Shown here: one piece after another, positions 326 through 10,749 of the stretch
Numbering within the stretch: the stretch's first letter is position 1
Layout of the letters: each line of letters starts with the position of its first letter
Source: an uncultured Eubacteriales bacterium
Lineage (GTDB): Bacteria > Bacillota > Clostridia > Oscillospirales > Oscillospiraceae
NCBI GenBank assembly: GCA_902461475.1
Contig: CABPXX010000019.1
Location: 1-10,749 of the forward strand
Direction: 5' to 3'
Length of the DNA stretch: 10,749 bases
Notes under the pieces: model-generated
What the model saw: only the letters and a program-made list of their open reading frames with translations
Told to the model about the DNA's origin: nothing
The model's database searches: none
Program-made: the position numbers and the translations under genes

Positions 326-368
326 AAAAGCTGTCGGCCATGCCATGGCAATGGCCGACAGCTTTTTT
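326..368 (+). terminator. Rho-independent terminator after fhs
   Basis: The sequence shows a near-perfect inverted repeat: left arm 326-341 (AAAAGCTGTCGGCCAT), a 9-nt loop 342-350, and right arm 351-366, ending in a run of six T (363-368). It begins 12 nt after the fhs stop codon. The stem is long and GC-rich with a U-tract, which is the classic intrinsic terminator shape. Because the arms carry A and T runs at both ends, it could act weakly in the other direction too, but no minus-strand gene ends here. Confidence 0.93.
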
Positions 369-409
369 CTGTCTATACAGAGAAGTCCGGTGGAACTCCA
401 GGGCTCGGC

Positions 410-442
410 TTAACACAAACTGAACACCCCATATGGTATAAC
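410..442 (+). promoter_or_regulatory. Response regulator promoter with tandem TTAACA-type operator
   Basis: TTAACA at 410-415 is followed 11 bp later by TGAACA at 421-426, a direct repeat on one face of the helix. The second hexamer ends 10 bp before TATAAC (437-442), which has an extended TGG just upstream and serves as the -10. No good -35 lies at 16-18 bp. Direct hexamers with 5-bp spacers overlapping the -35 region are the known binding pattern of OmpR/PhoB-family activators (for example PhoB and Bacillus PhoP boxes). The same layout occurs at 2323-2355. Autoregulation by the downstream regulator is inferred. Confidence 0.7.
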
Positions 443-469
443 GAGGGGAGACACAAAGGAGGGAGAAGC

Positions 470-1159
470 ATGCGCATCCTGGTGGTAGAAGATGAGGTGG
501 ACTTGCAAGAGGCCATCGCAGAGGGTCTGCGGCTGGACGGGTATGCCGTGGACACCTGCGGCGACGGTGCAACGGCCTATGAGCTCTTATATGTGGAGGA
601 GTATGACCTGGTGATTTTGGACCTGAACCTGCCCGAACTGGACGGCTTGACCGTACTGGAGAACATCCGGGAGGAGAAACCGGAACTCAAGGTGCTGATT
701 CTCAGCGCCAGAAGTACCGTTTCCGACAAGGTCCGGGGGCTGGACCTGTGGGCCAACGACTACCTGTCTAGGCCCTTTGACTTTGAAGAGCTGGAGGCCC
801 GCATCCGCAGCTTGCTGCGGCGCAGATTCATCCAGGAAGATCCCTGCCCCCAGTGCGGGGAACTTGAGCTGAACCTCTCCACCCGCACCGCCCAGGTGGG
901 GGGCGAGGCGCTGCCTTTGACCAAGAAGGAATTTGCTCTGCTGGAGTACCTCATGCTGCACCAGGATCGGGTGGTCAGCCAGGAGGAGCTGATGGAACAC
1001 GTGTGGGACGCCCAGGTGGACAGCTTCAGCGGGGTCATCCGGGTGCATATGGCCAGCCTTCGGAAAAAGCTCAAGCAGGGGCTGGGCTACGACCCCATTA
1101 TCACCCGCATTGGCCAGGGGGACTTGCTGCCCAAGGGGGGAGGAAAACCGGATGCTTAA
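470..1159 (+). CDS. OmpR/PhoB-family two-component response regulator
   Basis: This 229-residue protein is the DNA-binding output of a two-component system. The receiver domain (about 1-117) has the acidic pair E7/D8, phosphoacceptor D51 in VILDLNLPELDG, and S79. The C-terminal winged helix (about 130-222) has LTKKEFALLEYLM, VVSQEELMEHVWD and a recognition-helix region RVHMASLRKKL. The start at ATG 470 is set by AAAGGAGGG at 455-463, 6 nt upstream, and by receiver homology beginning there; the open frame further upstream is not coding. Odd points: the normally invariant receiver lysine before PF is R101, the usual glycine before AxDYL is W94, and the conserved tyrosine near the C-terminal hairpin is D218. 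A CPQC motif (126-129) sits in the linker. The kinase gene overlaps its end by 8 nt. Family is certain; whether phosphorylation signalling still works is doubtful given R101. Its likely targets are its own promoter and that of the ABC operon. Confidence 0.92.
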   Translation: MRILVVEDEVDLQEAIAEGLRLDGYAVDTCGDGATAYELLYVEEYDLVILDLNLPELDGLTVLENIREEKPELKVLILSARSTVSDKVRGLDLWANDYLSRPFDFEELEARIRSLLRRRFIQEDPCPQCGELELNLSTRTAQVGGEALPLTKKEFALLEYLMLHQDRVVSQEELMEHVWDAQVDSFSGVIRVHMASLRKKLKQGLGYDPIITRIGQGDLLPKGGGKPDA

Positions 1160-2289
1160 GAGAATCTCGCTGCGCTGGCGTCTGACCATCCTGACGACCT
1201 TGCTCATGGCGCTGTGCTGCATCTGCCTGAGCCTGGTGCTGAGTGCCTCCGCCTATCGGATGGCAAACACCATTGAAGCCATCCCGGTGCAGCCCGCCTA
1301 TAGCATTGGCGACCTGCCACTGGAGGAGACCATGCCCCCCATCCTTCCCGCCACCTCTTCGGATGTGGCCCAGCAGGCCAGGGGAGACTATAGGTATGAG
1401 AGCTTGTTTTTCACCCTGGTCGCCATGGTGATCGGGGGATGCCTGACCTACTATGTGGCGGGGAAGGCGTTGGAGCCGGTGAAGGCCTTCAACAAACAGG
1501 TGAAGAACATTCATGTACACAACCTAAAGGAGACTATAGAGGTGCCCCCCACAGGGGACGAGATTGCAGAACTAGCCGCCTCCTTCAATAACATGACCGA
1601 GAAGCTGGACCGGGCCTTTTCCATTCAGAAGCGCTTTTCGGCGGATGCCGCCCATGAATTGCGCACTCCCTTGGCGGTGATGCAGACCAAACTGGATGTC
1701 TTTCGCAAGAAGGGCCAGCACACCCCGGAGGAGTATGAGGCCCTGACGGCGGCCTTTCAAAAGCAGCTGGGGCGGCTGCGCAGTCTGGTGACCGAGCTGT
1801 TGGATATGGCCAACATGGAGGGAGAGTGGACCGCTGCACAAGTGCCGCTACTGGAGCTGCTGGAGGAGGTGCAGACGGATTTGTCCAGTGTGGCAGAGGG
1901 GAAGACTGTCACCATTTCCCTGTCTGGCGGGGAAGCCTATGCATGGGGAAACCCGGAGCTGTTGTACCGAGCCTTTTACAACCTGGTGGAAAACGGCATC
2001 AAATACAATGTGCCCGGGGGCCGTGTGGCCATAGAGATACAACGGGGGAAGGACCAGGTGACAGTTTCCGTCAGCGACACCGGCCCCGGCATTCCCCAGG
2101 CCATGCAGGAACAGGTCTTTGAGCCCTTTTTCCGCGTGGACAAATCCCGCAGCCGGGAGATGGGGGGGCGCAGGGCTGGGCCTGTCCATGGTGGACGCCA
2201 TTGTGAGGCAACACGGCGGCACGGTCTCTTTGACCGACCGGGAGGGCGGCGGCAGCTGCTTTACCGTGACGCTGCCCATACATCCATGA
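1152..2289 (+). CDS. Sensor histidine kinase, frameshifted near its C-terminus
   Basis: A membrane-bound HisKA/HATPase_c kinase, the partner of the overlapping response regulator. ATG 1152 is preceded by GGGGAGGAA at 1136-1144. In order: TM1 (about 8-32), a short extracytoplasmic loop of ~50 residues, TM2 (about 84-103), HAMP (104-157), DHp with phosphoacceptor H168 in SADAAHELRTP, then the ATPase domain with N box NLVENGIKYN (N277, N281), G1 box DTGPGIP (309-315) and F box VFEPFF (322-327). At 2162-2168 a run of seven G breaks the frame. With six G the protein continues into a normal G2 box (GGAGLGLSMV) and ends at TGA 2287-2289, giving 378 residues. As read, the frame drifts through a foreign tail and through the terminator to a stop at 2340-2342, losing the G2 box. 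This is a sequencing error, a real inactivating mutation, or a slippage-prone switch; the sequence alone cannot tell. The tiny outer loop resembles kinases that sense through a partner transporter or the membrane (inference). Confidence 0.85.
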
Positions 2290-2290
2290 C

Positions 2291-2319
2291 AAAAGGACTG
2301 GGAATTTCCCAGTCCTTTT
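2291..2319 (+). terminator. Terminator after the histidine kinase
   Basis: A perfect 13-bp inverted repeat: left arm 2291-2303 (AAAAGGACTGGGA), loop ATT, right arm 2307-2319 ending in TTTT. It starts 2 nt after the frame-corrected kinase stop (2287-2289), which independently supports that stop as the true gene end. The free U-tract is short because the T run is paired, so efficiency is uncertain. The symmetric A/T ends mean it may work in both directions. It separates the two-component operon from the ABC operon, whose promoter begins 4 nt later. Confidence 0.8.
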
Positions 2320-2322
2320 GCC

Positions 2323-2355
2323 TTAACAGGGATTTAACATAGTTTGCTTTATGAT
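2323..2355 (+). promoter_or_regulatory. ABC operon promoter with tandem TTAACA operator
   Basis: TTAACA at 2323-2328 is repeated exactly at 2334-2339, 11 bp later, and TATGAT (2350-2355) follows 10 bp after the second copy as the -10. No -35 lies at 16-18 bp. Hexamer identity, 11-bp period and distance to the -10 all equal those of the response regulator promoter (410-442). Direct activation by the upstream OmpR-type regulator is inferred from the match. The -10 covers the first in-frame ATG (2351), so translation must begin later, at 2387. Confidence 0.72.
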
Positions 2356-2386: not shown

Positions 2387-3055
2387 ATGTCTGTCATTGA
2401 AAATGTATCCAAACAATACGGCCCGGAATACGCCCTGCACCATGTGACTATGACCATCGGCAAGGGGATGAACTTCCTGGTGGGAGCCTCCGGCAGCGGA
2501 AAAACCACCCTGTTAAAGCTCTTGAGCGGAATGGAGGGGGACTTTGAGGGGGAGATCTCCTATCGAGGCAAGTCCATTCGGGATTTCTCGCCCCAGGAGA
2601 AGAGCGGGCTATACCACTCGGTGTTCGGCTTTGTGTGGCAGGACTTCCACCTGCTGGAGGAGGCCACCGTGCTGGAAAACGTGCTCTTGCCCGGCCACTT
2701 ACAGGAGGGGACGGACAAAGCCCAGGGAGAACGGCTGCTGCGCCAGCTGAACATCGAGGACCTGGCCGGGCAGAAAGTCAAATACCTGTCCGGGGGACAG
2801 AAGCAGCGGGTAGCCATTGCCCGAGAGCTGATGAAACAGCCACAGGTCCTCTTCTGCGATGAGCCCACCAGCGCCCTGGACGCCAAAGCCGCCAAGGCCA
2901 CCATGGACATTTTGCGCACCCTGTCCAAGCAGCGGACGGTCATCGTGGTCACCCATGATACCTCCCTCATCACCAGCAAGGATACCGTGTTTGAGCTGGA
3001 CAAGGGGGAGCTCATTTCCGCCCCGCCCCAGGAGAAGGAGCGTAAGGCAAACTGA
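2387..3055 (+). CDS. ABC transporter ATP-binding protein (LolD/MacB-type)
   Basis: A 222-residue cytoplasmic ATPase that would power the adjacent permease. All motifs are intact: Walker A GASGSGKT (33-40), Q-loop Q85, signature LSGGQ (134-138), Walker B VLFCDEP (154-160, catalytic E159), D-loop SALD (162-165) and H-loop H190. The length is normal for single-domain ATPases of the lipoprotein-export/antimicrobial-peptide-resistance group. ATG 2387 is chosen because AAAGGA (2373-2378) lies 8 nt upstream and because the ATG at 2351 overlaps the promoter -10 box. The permease begins 6 nt after its stop, so the two form an operon. Placement next to a two-component system that shares the same operator resembles the Bce/Vex-type sensing-and-export modules of Firmicutes, with antimicrobial peptides or envelope lipids as possible substrates; the substrate itself is not visible. 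No lesion is seen. Confidence 0.92.
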   Translation: MSVIENVSKQYGPEYALHHVTMTIGKGMNFLVGASGSGKTTLLKLLSGMEGDFEGEISYRGKSIRDFSPQEKSGLYHSVFGFVWQDFHLLEEATVLENVLLPGHLQEGTDKAQGERLLRQLNIEDLAGQKVKYLSGGQKQRVAIARELMKQPQVLFCDEPTSALDAKAAKATMDILRTLSKQRTVIVVTHDTSLITSKDTVFELDKGELISAPPQEKERKAN

Positions 3056-3061
3056 AAGTCG

Positions 3062-3950
3062 GTGGCCCGCCCCAAGCTATATCTGCCCGGCGCGTTGCGC
3101 ATCGCAGGGATGAATCTCAAGAACCGGGCGGGGCGGTTTGCCGTGTCGGTGCTCACCCTGCTGGTGGCATCCACCCTACTGCTGGCCACCGTCAGCGGGG
3201 CCATCGGAAGCAGCGGGGGCCGGGAGTTTGACAAACTGCTCCAGACCTATGGGGAGGGCATTTTGGATATCAGCCTGGTGGGCAGCTTCACCGGAGCCGC
3301 CGGGACATCGGGGGAGGACGAGGACAATACCAATCAGGATGTGGAGCAGGACCTCGGCGGCCTCTATGAGACCTATGCCCAGGACCCCCGGGTGGAGTTC
3401 ATTGTTCCCTCCCAGGCCTTTGACAACATTCAGGTCACCGTGGATGGACAGACCCACACCGTGGAGCAGAGCGGTAATACCCCGGTACTCACCAAGCTGC
3501 TGTCTGGGTCCATCCCCGCAGGGGATGACTTTCAGGTGGTGATTCCGGAGAAGTTTGCCCAGAGTCTGGGCTGGACGGCAGAATCTGCCCTGGGGAAGAC
3601 GGTGGAGTTCTCCGCCACCATCAACAAGTGGGTGAACAATCAGCCCATCGCAAAGCCGGTGAACTTGAAAGCTACGGTGTGCGGTGTGGCAGATAACACC
3701 GTGGTCTATGAGTACGAGGGACAGACCATGAGCTTCACGGTGGACGACAGCTTCTTCTTCAACCGGGCTGCCATTGAAGAGGTGCGCCGACAGGCGGGCA
3801 TCCAGGGGGACAGCGCCAACATGATTCTCAGGGCCAAGACCCCGGAGGACATGATCTCCCTGAAGGACGAGCTGAATCAGAAGGGAATTGTCCCCCTGGG
3901 CCAGTTTCCGCCTGGTATACACCGAGCCAGCCATAGCGCTGCGCACATAA
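3062..3950 (+). pseudogene. FtsX/MacB-type ABC permease, truncated after the extracellular domain
   Basis: The N-terminal ~281 residues of the permease partner of the upstream ATPase. A GTG start at 3062 lies 6 nt after the ATPase stop, with a weak ribosome binding site, so translational coupling is likely. Visible: a basic N-terminus, TM1 (about 26-49, VSVLTLLVASTLLLATVSGA), then a large hydrophilic outer domain (about 50-281) typical of FtsX-like permeases. Family members then carry three more membrane segments and a cytoplasmic FtsX domain; these are missing. Recognisable permease sequence ends about 3904. Deleting one T in 3905-3907 would give a short tail and a TAA at 3948-3950, immediately before the terminator. 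Without that, the frame runs to 4921 antisense to the next gene, a tail with no permease features. A deletion, rearrangement or misassembly near 3905 is likely. As it stands the transporter cannot form a normal membrane channel. Confidence 0.78.
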
Positions 3951-3992
3951 GAGCAAAAAAAGACCATCGGGATACCGATGGCCTTTTTTGCT
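3951..3992. terminator. Bidirectional terminator between the permease remnant and the ArsR-like gene
   Basis: A long inverted repeat: left arm 3951-3969 (GAGC, seven A, then GACCATCGG), a 4-6 nt loop, and right arm ending CCATTTTTTGCTC-like at 3976-3992 (CGATGGCCTTTTTTGCTC). Read on the plus strand it ends in six T (3984-3989); read on the minus strand it ends in seven T. It overlaps the last base of the ArsR-like stop codon (3992-3994). The shape suits convergent genes sharing one terminator. Confidence 0.9.
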
Positions 3993-5068
3993 CAGTTCTT
4001 GCCGAACAGCGCTGCCTGCCGCTCCAAAAACAGCTGGATCTGTTCTTCGTCCAGGGTGTAAAAGGTACGGTTTCCGTGGATGGTGCACTGCACCAGGCCG
4101 CAGTCGGAGAGCTTATTCATATGGTGGTGGATGGTGTTGCGGCTCAGGGAGAAGCGGGTGGACAGCTCCTGCACGTAGGCGGTGCGCCCCCGCAGATAGC
4201 ACAGAATGTCAAATCGGGTGGGGTCCCCCAACAGGCGGTAGGTCTCGCACACCTGATCCTGGGCGGAGGTGCGGCCGCTGACCAGCTCCATGAGCTCCCG
4301 CCGCAGCACGCCGCCGTAGATGCGCACTCGGCCGGGGGACTCGTCAAAGGTCAGGTTGGTGTCCGCCCCAAAGAGGAAGGGGTGAAGGGTGTAGGTGGTC
4401 TCCGGGGCGGGGCGCAGGTGGGACAGCTGGGTGAAAAACTCCAGCTGGGACAGGGGGGCGCACTGTTGGAGGTAGGAGGCGGCCAGCTCTTCCAGCTGCG
4501 CCTGGTGTTCCTCCAGGTGAGCCACAATGGGGCGCAGACACGCCAGAGCCCGCGCTCCCACCGCCTGATGGTTTCGGGAGAGCTCCAGCAGGGCCACCTT
4601 AGTGGAGTCCGGAGCGTTGAGCCCCAGTACCAGGTCGGTGAAGATCTGGGGGTCCATCCGGTGCTGGTTGGACAGGTCGTCCTCGAAGATGCTGGCGATG
4701 CCCCAGACCACCTCCTCCCGGTCCAGCCCGTCCACCAGCTGGGAGAAGGCCTCCCAATCCCCCTGGAATCGGTCCAGCAGGGGATAGAGGAGGAAGAAGG
4801 CGGGAGAGCTGGAGCCGATGGTGTTGTAGGGGAAGCCCTCCAGGTCGCCAAACAGCGCCTGAATTTCCTTTTCCTCGGCAGTGGCCACCCGGTCCAGCTG
4901 GTGGGTGAGGGCCTTGAGTAGCTCCAGAGCCTGGCACAGAGCGGGGCTGGGCAGCACCTTGCGCTGCTGAATGCGCTGCTCCATCTGGTCCCAGGTTTTG
5001 TTGCTGGCACGCCGCCCCAGATAGGCCAGTGCTTCCAGAATGAGGTTTGGTTTGTGTTGAATTATCAT
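3992..5068 (-). CDS. ArsR-type winged-helix transcriptional regulator with a large N-terminal domain
   Basis: A 358-residue protein with an ArsR-like DNA-binding domain at its C-terminus (about 273-348): LLGDPTRFDILCYL, a helix-turn-helix in VQELSTRFSLSRNTIHHHMNKL, and a wing around GLVQCTIHGNRTFYTLDEEQI. Canonical ArsR/SmtB proteins are ~100 residues; the ~270-residue alpha-helical N-terminal half here is a separate, probably ligand-sensing or dimerising domain of unknown function. The metal-binding CVC motif of the alpha-3 helix is absent, so metal sensing is unlikely. ATG at 5068-5066 is favoured by AAAGGAA (5080-5074) 5-6 nt upstream; the open frame continues upstream without a ribosome binding site. 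It is divergent from the secreted protease and ends in a bidirectional terminator. It may repress or activate the protease or itself (inference). The frame is intact, unlike most neighbours. Confidence 0.85.
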   Translation of the reverse strand: MIIQHKPNLILEALAYLGRRASNKTWDQMEQRIQQRKVLPSPALCQALELLKALTHQLDRVATAEEKEIQALFGDLEGFPYNTIGSSSPAFFLLYPLLDRFQGDWEAFSQLVDGLDREEVVWGIASIFEDDLSNQHRMDPQIFTDLVLGLNAPDSTKVALLELSRNHQAVGARALACLRPIVAHLEEHQAQLEELAASYLQQCAPLSQLEFFTQLSHLRPAPETTYTLHPFLFGADTNLTFDESPGRVRIYGGVLRRELMELVSGRTSAQDQVCETYRLLGDPTRFDILCYLRGRTAYVQELSTRFSLSRNTIHHHMNKLSDCGLVQCTIHGNRTFYTLDEEQIQLFLERQAALFGKN

Positions 5069-5227: not shown

Positions 5228-5300
5228 GTCCATATGATAACATGGCAGAGCCCTTTGGGCAATGGGGGCATGTGAGATTCAGATAGAAGGGAGAAGAACA

Positions 5301-8300
5301 ATGGAAAAAGTCAGAAAAAGCATGGCAGTGTTACTTGCCGTCATGATGCTGGCTGGCGCACTTCCCGGAGCCGCTTGGGCTGAGGGCACTCAGACCAATG
5401 AGCGCACGGTCCAGGCCCGGGAAGTGGAGTCCGAGTCCCGGGTGCAGTATCAGGACGCCCAGGACGACAGCCAGCCCCGATATGCAGAGGATGAGGTGGT
5501 AACCGTCATCGTGGAGATGGAAGCTCCTGCTGTGATGGACTACTACCAGGTCAGCAGCTACGCCGCCTCTGTGGGCGACGAGACCAGCGCCGGTGAGGCG
5601 GTATCCGAGTACCTGGCCTCTTCGGACGTGCAGCAGACTACTCAGCAGCTGCTGAATGACCAGCAGGGCGTCATCGACTAGGTGACTGCTCTGGCCGCTC
5701 AGCAGCCCGCCGTGACCGACGCCACCGATGAAAACAGCGGTGAGCCTGTGGGTACCATTGTAGGCCAGTGGGCCACTTTGGTCAACGCCATGGCCATCCG
5801 GGTGCCTTACAGCGCTCTGGACGGAGTCAAGCGAGCCTATGTGGAGCAGGTGTATGACCGCCCCGAGGAGACCAGCGGCACCGTGGACGGTGACAAGGCC
5901 TGGTATTCCTACAGCTACGACAAGGTGGGCGTGGAAGGCGTCTGGAGCGAGGGCTACACCGGCCAGGGTATGCTGGTGGCCGTTTTGGACAGCGGCCTGG
6001 ACCTGAAGTTGGGCGTGACTCAGAACGAGGACGGCTCACAGGGCCGCGGCGTGGTGCGGGTCCACGAGGCCTTCACCGACAACTCCTTTAAGAATGACCC
6101 CAACGACGCCGAGAACGGCTGGAATCTGCGCTACACCTCCGAGAGCCTGGCTGCCTTCCTGGAGGACAACCAGCTCAACTCCACCACCGGGCAGGACGGC
6201 GGCGTGATTGTGTGGGACTACAACGGTCTGTACAAAAACCTGAAGGTGCCCTACGCCTGTGACTACGCAGACGGCGACATCAACGTCCTGCCCACCTCCA
6301 GCGATCACGGCACCCACGTCTCCGGCACGGTGGCCGGTTACGCTGAGACCGACGAGGGCGAGGTCATTTTCTCCGGCGTGGCCCCCGACGCTCAGCTGAT
6401 GATGATGAAGGTGTTCCCCGATCAGGACGGCGGTGCTCAAGCAGACGGTGACCATCAACGCCCTGGAGGATGCTCTGAAGCTGGGCGCCGATGTCATCAA
6501 CCTGAGCCTGGGTTCTGACAACGGCTTTGCCGACGACGACACCATGCAGAACGAGCTGTACGCCCGCATTGAGGAGGCCGGCATTGTGCTCATGGCCTCC
6601 GTCGGCAACAGCAGCTACTCTTCTGCCAGCCACAACTACGGGGACAACCCCCTGACCTCCGATGTGGACACCTCTATGATGTCCTCCCCGCCATCTACTC
6701 CTCCAACCTGGGCGTGGCCTCTCTGGAGAACGCCATCCAGGTGCAGTCCTACTTCACCTGGACCAACGAGGACGGTGAGACCCGGGAGATCGACCCCTGG
6801 ACCGTGGCTATGAAGGCCACCTTTGCCGACAAGGTCACCAACGCCCAGTCCTTCTCCTCCGTGGTTCACGGGGAGACCCGAGGCATCCTGGGCGTGCTGG
6901 TGTATGATAGCGACCCCAATGCCCCTGAGCTGATCAACATGAGCGTGGAGAACACCAGCCTGTCCAGTGCCTACATCAAGGGCCGGGAGGGCTCTGCCAT
7001 GGAGGCCGCTCTGAAGGCTGGCCAGTCCGTGAACATCGTGGTTCCCGAGGAGGACAAGGCCGTGGAGAATCCCACCGACGGTCAGATGTCCACCTTCTCC
7101 TCCTGGGGCGCTGGTCCCAGCCTGGAGCTGAAGCCTGAGATCACCGCCCCCGGCGGCAACATCTGGTCCACCATCATCGACCAGATCAACACCGCCGACG
7201 AGGGCTACACCGGCAGCTACGGCATGATGAGTGGTACCTCCATGGCCGCCCCCCACATGACCGGTATTGCCACTCTGGTGCGCCAGTACGTGCAGTCCAG
7301 CGCAGCCTTTGCCGGCAAGGAGCCCGGTGAGGTGGGCGACATTGTCAACCAGCTGCTGGTGAGCACCGCTGTGCCTCAGACTGATTCCAACGGGGTGTAC
7401 TACTCTCCCCGTCAGCAGGGCGCCGGTCTGGTCAACGCCACCGCCGCCGTGGACACCCCCGCCTACATCACCGTGGACGGCCAGAATGTGGGCAAGCTGG
7501 AGCTGCTGGACGATCCCAACCGCACCGGCAGCTATGACATCACCTTTGATGTGCACAACATCTCCGACAAGGCCATGACCTATGACGTGGCCATCACCCT
7601 CCAGCGCCCCGACACCCAGACTGTGGACAGCACCTGGGGTGAGCGCAACACCATGATGCACCAGGACGTGGTCATCAAGACCGTGGAGCTGGGCCAGGTC
7701 ACCGTGGAGGCCGGACAGACCGCCCGCTTCTCCAAGACTGTGACCCTCACCGACAGTGAGAAGGCTCAGCTGGACCAGCTGTTTGAAAACGGCGTGTATG
7801 TGGAGGGCTTTGTCTCCCTCACCGATGCCGCCGGCACCGCTCCCACCCTGGGCCTGCCCATGCTGGCCTTCTACGGCGACTGGACGGCCGCCCCCATCTT
7901 TGACCAGGGCGACTGGACCGACGAGGCCGAGGACGGCGAGAACGTGATGAACAACGAGTCCACTTGGGGCGTGTCCCTGATGGGCAGCACCATGGTCAAC
8001 TGGAGCTCTGGGGAGATCATTGGCTACCTGAACCTGGGCCAGAATCCCTTTGACTCCGACGCTGTCATGAATCAGACCCTCTATTGCGAGGAGAACATTA
8101 CCATCTCCCCCAACGGAGACGAGTACTTCGACCGCGTGGACGACTACATCCTCTATCAGCTCCGTGACGCCAAGATGATCGTGGTGCGGGTCACCGATGC
8201 CGAGACCGGCGAGGTGTACTTTGCCGACTGGAACTCCTTCATCACCCGTACCCTGTACAACGCCTCTTACGCCGCTCCCACCCCCCTGAGCGCCATGTAC

Positions 8301-10749
8301 TATGGCCTCATCCCCACTTGGGACGGCACCGACCAGGAGGGCAACGTCCTGCCCAGCGGCACCAAGTGCAAGTATGAGATCATCGCCTACGGCGAGGGTG
8401 ATTACGGCGACAAGGTGTACAACGAGGATATGGGCTACGAGATCACCGACTTCGACGCCGTGGCCGCCGGGGAGATCACTCCCACCTCCAACGGCCACGA
8501 GATGGACATGACCGGCGACGTGATGGACTTCTCCATCACCGTGGACACCGTGGCCCCCGAGCTGGAGAACAACACCGTCTCCATCTATGAGAAGGACGGC
8601 TGCACTTACATGACCGGCACCGTCTATGACGAGGACGGCTCCCTGGCTAACATCGAAGTGTCTCCCTATGTCACCCGTACCTATAAGGAAGGCTACGGCG
8701 ATCCCAACTACTCCGAGGTGGGCGTGAATAGCACCAACGCTTTCCTGGTGGAGAACTTCTATGACCCCGCCGTGAAGACTCGCACCTTCACCGTGGACGT
8801 CACCGAGTACGCCCACAGCATTGAGAACTATCCCGGCGAGAACAACGTCTATGACTTCACTTGGAACGGCAACGTGCTGGTGTCCTGCGGCGACTACGGC
8901 GCCAATGACCGCAGCTATGCCATTACCGTGGAGTCCACCCAGGGCCTGGTGCTCTCTCAGACCTCCGCTCTGCTCCATCCCGGTAACTCCTTCGACCTGA
9001 GCGTCATCGACAACAGCGGCCAGGAGGGCACCATCACCCGCACCTCCAGCAACCTCGAGGTGGCCACCATTGACGATTACGGCCATGTCACCGCCGTGGC
9101 TCCCGGCCAGACGGTCATCACCGTGGCCAAGGGCGGCTCCAGCGCCATCTGTGTGGTGGCCGTGGAGGAAGTGCCCACCGTGGTGGAGGACTTCGATCTG
9201 TCCATCCAGAGCTTTGACGGCCTGAAGCCCGACGGCCAGGTGGTGGTGAAGGTGGACAACCTCCAGCCCGCCAACGTGGACCTCTCCGAGATCAAGTGGA
9301 CTGTGCGGGAGGACGAGGACTACGCCGAGAACTATGCCGAGGGCCTCATCGACGTGGACCAGTACACCAACGACGGCCTCACCGGCGTGATGTACCTCAC
9401 CGTCTCCACCTCTCAGGCTGGCCTGGAGCTGCCTGAGGGCAACGGCAGACTGGACGTGACCCTCAACGGCGTCACCCGTTCCATGGACATCAACTGGGAC
9501 GACATTTACACCACTTCCGATCAGGACGACCTGGTCTCTGACATGGCCATGGGCGACCAGGTGGTGTACGTCAAGCAGGGTGAAACCGCCCAGCTGCTGG
9601 CCAAGAATCGCCAGAACAAGCTTCACGAGACCAGCACCGTGGAGACCGAACTCACCGGCCTGAAGCTGGATGGCCCCGACTTCTTCAACGTGGGCGGCAC
9701 CTACGAGGCCACCCTGGTCAACGAGGCCGGTTACGACCTGCCCGAGGATGTGGAGCTGTGGATTCGCTACGCCAACGGCTCCGAGGTGCAGATGCAGAAT
9801 AGCGCAGGCTACAAGCCCTACACCTACGATCCCGAGACCGGTAAGCTGGTGGTGCATTACGTACCCAGCGGCGCTACCAACGTGCTCATTATCCGGGCCG
9901 CTGGTGTGGAGAATCCCGAGGCCCAGGCCGGCAGCATGTCCGGCCAGACCTGGACCCGTCCCGATCCCCTGTACGGACCCTTCGACTGGACCGTTACCGA
10001 CGGCAACGGCGAGCTGACCATAGGTACTGTGACCGACAAGTGGGGTCAGGAGATCAACGCCGCCATGTACACTCCCTCTGAGCCCGGCGTGAGCTACATC
10101 ACCGCCACCACCAAGGACGGTCAGTACTCTTTGAACTTCGCCGTGGTGTGTGAGGCGGTCCTGGCCGACACTCTGAACCTGGACACCCACCGCCTGGATC
10201 TGGAGGCTGGTGACACCCACACCCTCACCGCCACCCTGAGCCCCGAGCCCACTCGGGCCGAGGACGCCCAGGTGCGCTACATCAGCTTCAACCCCGATGT
10301 GGCCTCTGTGGATGAAAACGGTGTGGTCACCGCCCACAAGGAGGGCTATGCCTACCTGAAGGTGGAGAGCGTGGCCGACAACCAGGTCACCAGCTACTGC
10401 GTGGTCAAGGTCACCGGCAACATGTATCAGGTGAAGTTCGTGGACGACACCGGCAACATCTACAAGCTGGTGGAAGTGGCTGAGGGCAGCTGCGTGTCCA
10501 AGCCCCAGGACCCCGTGCGGGAGGGTTACACCTTCGACGGCTGGTTCATGGACGAGGACGGCACCCAGGCCTACGACTTCAACACCCCTGTGGACGCTGA
10601 CCTGACCCTGTACGCCCACTGGACCAAGGTGGACACCGAGCCCACCCCCAATCCCGGTGGTGACGGCGGCTCCCAGGGCGGCGGCAGCGGTACCGGCGAC
10701 GAGAGCAACCTGATTGTGCCCATGGCCACTCTGGTGTGCGCCATGGCAG
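5301..10749 (+). pseudogene. Giant secreted S8 (subtilisin-like) cell-envelope protease, interrupted; 3' end outside window
   Basis: A lactocepin/C5a-peptidase-like protein of >1816 codons. ATG 5301 has AAGGGAG 7 nt upstream and a signal peptide (1-27, cut after AWA). Then: a propeptide (about 60-180); S8 domain (about 215-710) with D230 in VLDSGL, H336 in DHGTHVSG, S647 in SGTSMAAPH, and a reduced PA-like insert (about 480-575); an Fn3-like domain (about 725-855); a FlgD-like Ig domain (about 934-1040: SPNGDEYFD ... WDGTD); two Big_2-like domains (about 1211-1289, 1624-1705); a Listeria-Bacteroides repeat (about 1709-1775); a Gly/Pro linker; and the start of a hydrophobic C-terminus. Lesions: in-frame TAG at codon 127 (5679-5681, expected Q), an extra A near 6440 and a missing C near 6689. 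The indels compensate, and the segment between them carries the oxyanion-hole Asn (6607-6609). It is either decayed or mis-sequenced. It probably degrades extracellular peptides; control by the divergent regulator is inferred. Confidence 0.85.

Follow-up and report, generated by a model that had tools for sequence, protein, structure and literature searches.

The window analysed here, a stretch of 10,749 nucleotides from an uncultured bacterium of the Oscillospiraceae (contig CABPXX010000019.1), contains a putative two-component system followed by genes of an ATP-binding cassette (ABC) transporter, and all elements of this system lie on the plus strand. The response regulator (470..1159, 229 amino acids) consists of a receiver domain and a winged helix, which score 98.9 bits for PF00072 (Response_reg, cut-off 30.2) and 72.6 bits for PF00486 (Trans_reg_C, cut-off 26.2) in Pfam, and as judged by these two domains it is a member of the OmpR/PhoB family. 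The gene for the sensor histidine kinase starts at 1152 and overlaps the end of the regulator gene at 1159; its open frame, up to 2165, codes for two hydrophobic helices separated by ~50 residues, a HAMP domain (33 bits, cut-off 25), a HisKA domain and a partial HATPase domain. The transporter is represented by an ABC ATPase part of 222 amino acids (2387..3055, ABC_tran) and a permease part covering the extracellular domain region (3062..~3907). Between the kinase and the transporter genes lies a terminator-like hairpin with a T-run (2290..2320, -23.2 kcal/mol, z -7.5), possibly bidirectional, in agreement with the intervening terminator proposed in an earlier note on this DNA. A further terminator-like hairpin (329..368, -26.6 kcal/mol, z -6.3) follows the formate--tetrahydrofolate ligase gene, the end of which lies in the window, and isolates operator 1, described below, from upstream transcription.

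The same element, referred to as the box, precedes both transcription units. Operator 1 (CTTAACA-N5-TGAACA, 409..426) is located 5' of the regulator gene and is followed by the -10 element TATAAC (437..442), and operator 2 (CTTAACA-N5-TTAACA, 2322..2339) is located 5' of the ABC gene and is followed by TATGAT (2350..2355); all four elements were identified by pattern search and ortholog alignment. The complete sites, at 409-442 and 2322-2355, can be combined as CTTAACA-N5-TKAACA-N10-TATRAY. In the 10,749 bases, TTAACANNNNNTKAACANNNNNNNNNNTATRAY was matched exactly twice, at 410-442 and 2323-2355, both on the plus strand and with 0 mismatches, and the leading C is an additional base common to both sites. 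When as many as 3 mismatches were tolerated, a mean of 0.01 matches was obtained over 200 shuffles, at most 1 and never 2; this estimate is post hoc because the pattern was written from the two sites themselves, and orthologous promoters, not window shuffles, were taken as the independent test of the operator. At both sites the hexamers are spaced by 11 base pairs (bp) and the second hexamer is separated from the -10 by 10 bp, so that the paired sites with identical geometry described earlier could be recovered without deviation in the window. Measured from the -10, the two hexamers end at 21 and 10 bp and neither lies at 16-18 bp, which bears out the claim that a proper -35 element is missing at both sites. 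Otherwise the two sites have unlike flanks and spacers, so that their resemblance does not suggest a recent duplication.

Regulator homologs were collected at E <= 1e-75 from overlapping samples, namely 391 and 348 genomes of the classes to which Robinsoniella and Solibacillus belong, respectively, and three families of 141, 194 and 250 genomes, and 35 genomes were positive; a plasmid collection gave no regulator match at 1e-60. In total, 34 regions of 10.5-16 kb were fetched, which together with Solibacillus palustris (L001) and Robinsoniella peoriensis (L002) resulted in 36 loci in 35 genomes. The 300 bases 5' of each gene were scored with the 13-position box CTTAACA-N5-TTWAYR at no more than one mismatch, a pattern that was refined after the relatives had been inspected.

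The regulator orthologs of the Solibacillus and Robinsoniella relatives are 54-70% identical and have the same box at their promoters. In S. palustris a second box is present 5' of a secreted protein gene, in R. peoriensis boxes are found 5' of the regulator, ABC and lipoprotein genes, and in L080 5' of the regulator and ABC genes. Over all labelled loci, the regulator gene is preceded by the box in 18 of 34 cases, divided into 15/18 at >=60% identity and 3/16 below, and the first ABC gene, which encodes a fused ATPase-permease, in 10 of 14. The paired hexamers which the earlier note had predicted for orthologous regulator and ABC promoters are thus present at most closer regulators and most ABC genes. 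L089 and L091, in which the regulator was overlooked by the gene caller, have the box too. No box was observed 5' of the kinase gene (0/36), the second ABC gene (0/14) or the TlpA-like gene (0/20), and 8 of 373 other genes had one. Five of these eight control genes, namely four thioredoxin-like lipoproteins and one ABC-operon leader gene, resemble true targets and were kept within the control count. Boxes were also counted 5' of the 4Fe-4S gene (12/20) and of the secreted protein gene (6/6), but only the regulator and ABC counts are independent of the box, because the other two sets were named after a box had been sighted. Four ABC genes have no box of their own. Three of these (L105, L106 and L112) sit on the same strand 3' of the response regulator (RR), histidine kinase (HK) and TlpA-like genes, in a run RR-HK-TlpA-like-ABC1-ABC2-4Fe-4S, and the boxes at their regulator promoters score 11, 12 and 12 of 13, respectively. 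The fourth (L088) is preceded by another ABC-operon leader gene which bears the box. A different arrangement was observed in L081, L103, L107 and similar more distant loci, where the regulator is divergent from the 4Fe-4S membrane gene, followed by the TlpA-like gene, and the box faces the 4Fe-4S gene.

On a genome-wide scale, the exact box with its -10 (CTTAACANNNNNTTWAYRN10TANAMT) gave 37 matches, distributed over 28 of the 35 regulator-positive genomes, and none in 35 genomes scored as lacking the regulator. When one mismatch was allowed, 79 matches were found in the former versus 15 in the latter, and the reversed pattern gave 23 versus 27. Of the exact sites, 32 are located inside the regulator's own locus; of the remaining five, three are found 5' of paralogues of the secreted protein, one 5' of a second 4Fe-4S gene and one 5' of a putative kdpA. 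The regulator-negative control is slightly contaminated, to the disadvantage of the hypothesis, because one genome scored as lacking (G1028) holds a 56% identical regulator beside a one-mismatch box 5' of a 4Fe-4S-like gene.

For the geometry, 64 sites including those of the window were gathered by hand from boxes already located; this set therefore shows what the box looks like and not how frequent it is, and its hexamer spacing of 11 bp was fixed by the construction of the search. Of the 42 target sites, 41 have a gap of 10 bp to the -10. Of the 22 sites at regulator genes, 13 have this gap, five a gap of 9 bp and four a gap of 11 bp. Overall, 54 sites have the 10-bp gap and 9 are off by one, so that a -10-like hexamer is found 9-11 bp past half-site 2 in 63. 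The claim of identical geometry accordingly holds for the hexamer spacing, but the distance to the -10 varies at the regulator-gene sites.

Among genomes half-site 2 varies, mainly between TTAACA, TTTACA and TTTATR. Among promoters of one genome, the identity of this half-site is 0.95 compared to 0.73 after shuffling, with 0 of 2000 shuffles as high (16 genomes with >=2 sites), and when only regulator and target sites were paired, 0 of 5000 shuffles were as high (21 pairs, 14 genomes). The near-duplicate genomes G827, G669 and G973 were excluded from these shuffles. No within-genome agreement was observed for the N5 spacer or the -10, and it was weak for the 15 bases upstream (28/2000) and for N10 (91/2000). 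Agreement of half-site 2 within a genome is the expected trace of one trans-acting regulator.

Position 5 of half-site 2 could be linked to residue 188 of the regulator, which is Asn where the base is T and Gly or Ser where it is C in 35 of 36 regulators, with G1003 as the exception and G1236, with T at one site and A at the other, counted as T. The tree offers two independent pairs for this link, which agreed in direction in 1.8 of 2 on average, and with only two independent switches a sign test cannot reach significance. In a structure match to PmrA (4s04, residues 1-202 to 1-202), residue 188 immediately precedes those residues of the recognition helix that are named for PmrA (PMC3973317). 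A link between residue 212 and position 3 of half-site 2 (17+14 concordant, 5 not) was not supported, and the independent pairs disagreed in direction.

The computations showed the sites and their conservation among orthologs, their joint occurrence with the regulator, and the match of half-site 2 inside a genome, and on this sequence basis the predicted shared control of the regulator-kinase operon and the transporter by one OmpR/PhoB-type regulator is strongly supported. The earlier note had gone further and proposed that the regulator activates both operons. For this, the ortholog boxes and the half-site agreement speak for control of both, and it is from the position of the box that we infer activation rather than repression. 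The PhoB boxes of E. coli are described as 8-bp direct repeats with a 3-bp linker, giving an 11-bp period, and are located 10 bp upstream of the -10 (PMC1906773); the 11-bp direct repeats at both window sites likewise end 10 bp before the -10 and lack a -35, as had been pointed out before. With a probability of about 80%, a dimer of the phosphorylated regulator activates its own operon and the ABC operon from the shared box. The regulator would be phosphorylated by its partner kinase and would then bind the 11-bp direct repeat CTTAACA-N5-TTAACA as a head-to-tail dimer. With respect to the expected start the box would cover roughly -40 to -23, in place of a -35 element, and the bound regulator would recruit RNA polymerase to the -10 situated 10 bp further on (class II activation). 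At its own operon this would result in positive feedback, and at the ABC exporter operon beyond the terminator the transporter would be co-induced.

Several observations weigh against activation of both operons by this regulator. The stricter 12-position pattern of the earlier note performed less well than the refined one, and at no more than one mismatch was found at 11 of 18 regulator promoters (>=60% identity), 6 of 14 ABC promoters and 3 of 373 others. Regulator promoters below 60% identity mostly have no good box, and in many of these loci the box is instead located 5' of the 4Fe-4S gene. Among the 18 closer regulator promoters, three (L081, L099 and L109) have none either, and 9 of the 22 regulator-gene sites deviate by one base in their distance to the -10. 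The shuffles ignore the kinship among genomes, and the half-site agreement therefore rests on few clades. The window regulator is altered at residues 94, 101 and 218, which are highly conserved positions in its family. Finally, similar boxes occur in G150 and G212 5' of genes which we take to be kdpA, and other OmpR-family regulators may therefore see similar DNA.

The gene copies of the window itself look damaged. The kinase reading frame is broken after ~2165, and the ATPase and permease pieces lie in different frames; relatives have one fused ATPase-permease protein of ~648 amino acids. The permease is without its C-terminal membrane part; homology ends near 3907 and is followed by a terminator-like hairpin and the next gene, while the open frame continues past ~3907 without homology. 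The second ABC gene of the relatives does not follow. Compared to a 98% identical relative, the regulator differs at residues 44, 94, 100, 101 and 218. The gene for a large secreted subtilisin-like protease (5262-10749, class read from the sequence) is interrupted by an in-frame stop near 5680 and changes frame at ~6433-6518 and ~6714-6813, which gives the impression that errors or decay extend over the whole window. With its kinase and transporter genes broken, the circuit may not work here. It could even be a relic in the sequenced organism, in which the kinase, the transporter and the neighbouring protease decay and the operators are left over. The broken genes and the altered conserved regulator residues fit such decay, but where several unrelated genes are broken at once, sequence errors are as plausible a cause. 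Moreover, an intact fused transporter (P0243), of which residues 1-222 are 98% identical to the ATPase piece and residues 226-507 are 96% identical to the permease piece, is recorded for Pseudoflavonifractor capillosus, which makes this species or a close relative the probable source of the window, and the 98% identical regulator has the usual residues and is represented by 61 member sequences (P0001). A relic is therefore taken seriously but considered rather unlikely.

There is a small chance that the regulator binds both boxes as a repressor, blocking polymerase at -40 to -23 until a signal alters its phosphorylation. The box overlaps the polymerase site, and the response regulator CBO0786 is reported to repress by binding to a -10 region (PMC3610760). 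On the other hand, the 10-bp distance to the -10 is the one described for PhoB boxes (PMC1906773), although a position as such is also compatible with repression, and the absence, at the aligned sites, of a -35 at a usable distance from the -10 fits activator-dependent promoters.

It is highly improbable that one or both sites are bound by another regulator of similar specificity, KdpE-like or another OmpR-family paralogue. The boxes 5' of the putative kdpA of G150 and G212 would fit this. So would the CTTAA-type 11-bp repeats of SphR and PmrA (PMC1906773, PMC3973317). The relatives scored as lacking the regulator have no exact box, however, and the type of half-site 2 depends on the clade to which this regulator belongs. 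Least credible is that both sites are ordinary sigma-A promoters with TTAACA as the -35 and the second hexamer and the promoter resemblance arising by chance. TTAACA does agree with TTGACA at 5 of 6 bases, and the first site alone contains a promoter-like TTAACA-N16-TATGGT at 410-437, but this reading is contradicted by the alignment of the 64 hand-collected sites, of which 63 have the -10-like hexamer 20-22 bp past the first half-site, by the conservation of both half-sites and by a box that tracks the regulator gene.

The ABC genes of the relatives encode two fused ATPase-permease proteins, of 648 and 598 amino acids in L080. In L002, the first contains ABC_tran and MacB_PCD (30.7, cut-off 27) and the second ABC_tran and FtsX, and by these domains the predicted transporter of this relative is a MacB/FtsX-type fused ABC exporter; the window permease piece alone gave no Pfam match. 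In one family, the regulator was found in 6 of 194 genomes and the fused ABC protein also in 6 of 194 (one at only 36% identity), with 5 genomes in common. In the class sample the ABC protein was found in 2 of 391 genomes, both within the 6 regulator-positive ones, and the other 4 of these 6 were without a transporter match. Those four genomes, together with boxes 5' of secreted repeat proteins, thioredoxin-like lipoproteins and the 4Fe-4S membrane protein in relatives, do not agree with the earlier suggestion that the transporter is a dedicated output. In Bce-type modules, the two-component genes adjoin the ABC transporter they control, and a kinase without HAMP domain senses through the transporter. 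Here the two-component genes are likewise found beside an ABC transporter, but the kinase has a HAMP domain and the ~50 residues between its membrane helices, and the transporter of the relatives is a pair of fused MacB/FtsX-like proteins, unlike BceRS-BceAB, and no support was found for a role of the transporter in sensing, which had also been considered. As a separate observation, small secreted proteins with repeats like KGMTLDELIAQLEKEGK are encoded behind operators in L114, L115, L116, L085, L086, L001 and L089. G803 has three such proteins with a box, and two that were scanned gave no convincing Pfam family.

Compared with PhoB, the regulator stays below the NCBIfam cut-offs (TIGR02154, 144.9 versus 296.2; NF053854, 151.9 versus 270), for which membership in the Pho regulon was rejected, and no phosphate gene was noticed among the targets looked at. 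SphR of cyanobacteria binds CTTAACCT direct repeats, likewise of 8 bp, and is reported to occupy at least three of them (PMC1906773); this half-site has CTTAAC in common with the window box, where two repeats are found. The PmrA (BasR) box consists of the half-sites CTTAAG and XTTAAT with five base pairs between them (PMC3973317). In comparison with CTTAAC-N5-NTTAAC, the register and the CTTAA core of half-site 1 agree, and the last base is C and not G or T. PmrA is the second-best NCBIfam model for the regulator and its structure can be aligned over 1-202, but the NF007928 score of 179.6 lies below the equivalog cut-off of 330 and the target genes are not the same. The regulator RR_1586 of Clostridioides difficile is set apart by another half-site and target set. 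ModRS of Fusobacterium nucleatum is genetically linked to a thioredoxin-like gene under its control, and in this it resembles the relatives of the window system, which also seem to regulate thioredoxin-like genes (PMC9239216). It differs in its linkage to MsrAB and CcdA, and the available part of its description contains no MacB-like transporter or operator (PMC9239216). In 12 loci, short motifs flagged no MsrA or MsrB beside the regulator; in L089 an MsrA-like gene is present at a distance of ~5 kb from the regulator, but the boxes that precede it all have two mismatches. The operator-like sites L120:5290 and L122:5393, located 5' of putative kdpA genes, suggest an overlap with KdpE-type boxes.

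The company of thioredoxin-like and 4Fe-4S proteins in the relatives weakly suggests extracytoplasmic redox or envelope stress as the signal. We tentatively propose, with the odds somewhat against it, that one regulator family of Bacilli and Clostridia governs a small module in which a MacB-like transporter pair is joined either to a thioredoxin-like lipoprotein and a 4Fe-4S membrane protein, as an extracytoplasmic electron relay, or to secreted repeat proteins, and that its operator evolves asymmetrically, with half-site 1 (CTTAACA) nearly fixed and half-site 2 tracking residue 188. No description of the regulon was found in searches of the open PMC literature that covered the openings of abstracts, and as far as the open literature shows it is undescribed; the design of its operator is well known. 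The analysis provides a two-component system of Firmicutes from gut and soil, so far uncharacterised, with a defined operator and a short target list. Through shared control and, in two genomes, through an unbroken run of genes on the same strand, a MacB-like transporter pair is tied to thioredoxin-like and 4Fe-4S proteins, and the relatives form a natural series for the study of a regulator changing together with only one half of its operator.

Downstream of the system, an ArsR-type helix-turn-helix protein is encoded on the minus strand (3992-5068), convergent with the truncated permease, and its ~270 N-terminal residues are without family assignment. In 19 of 38 target promoters an ACATCAA-like element (>=5 of 7 bases) begins 4 nucleotides past the aligned -10, and at this offset it was observed in 0 of 19 regulator promoters. 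It is present in L001, L002, L080, L083, L085, L086, L096, L097, L099 and others, and the window ABC promoter does not score. This element is perhaps the start-site region or the site of a second regulator, and 9 of the 19 promoters belong to secreted proteins, so that their similarity may be by descent.

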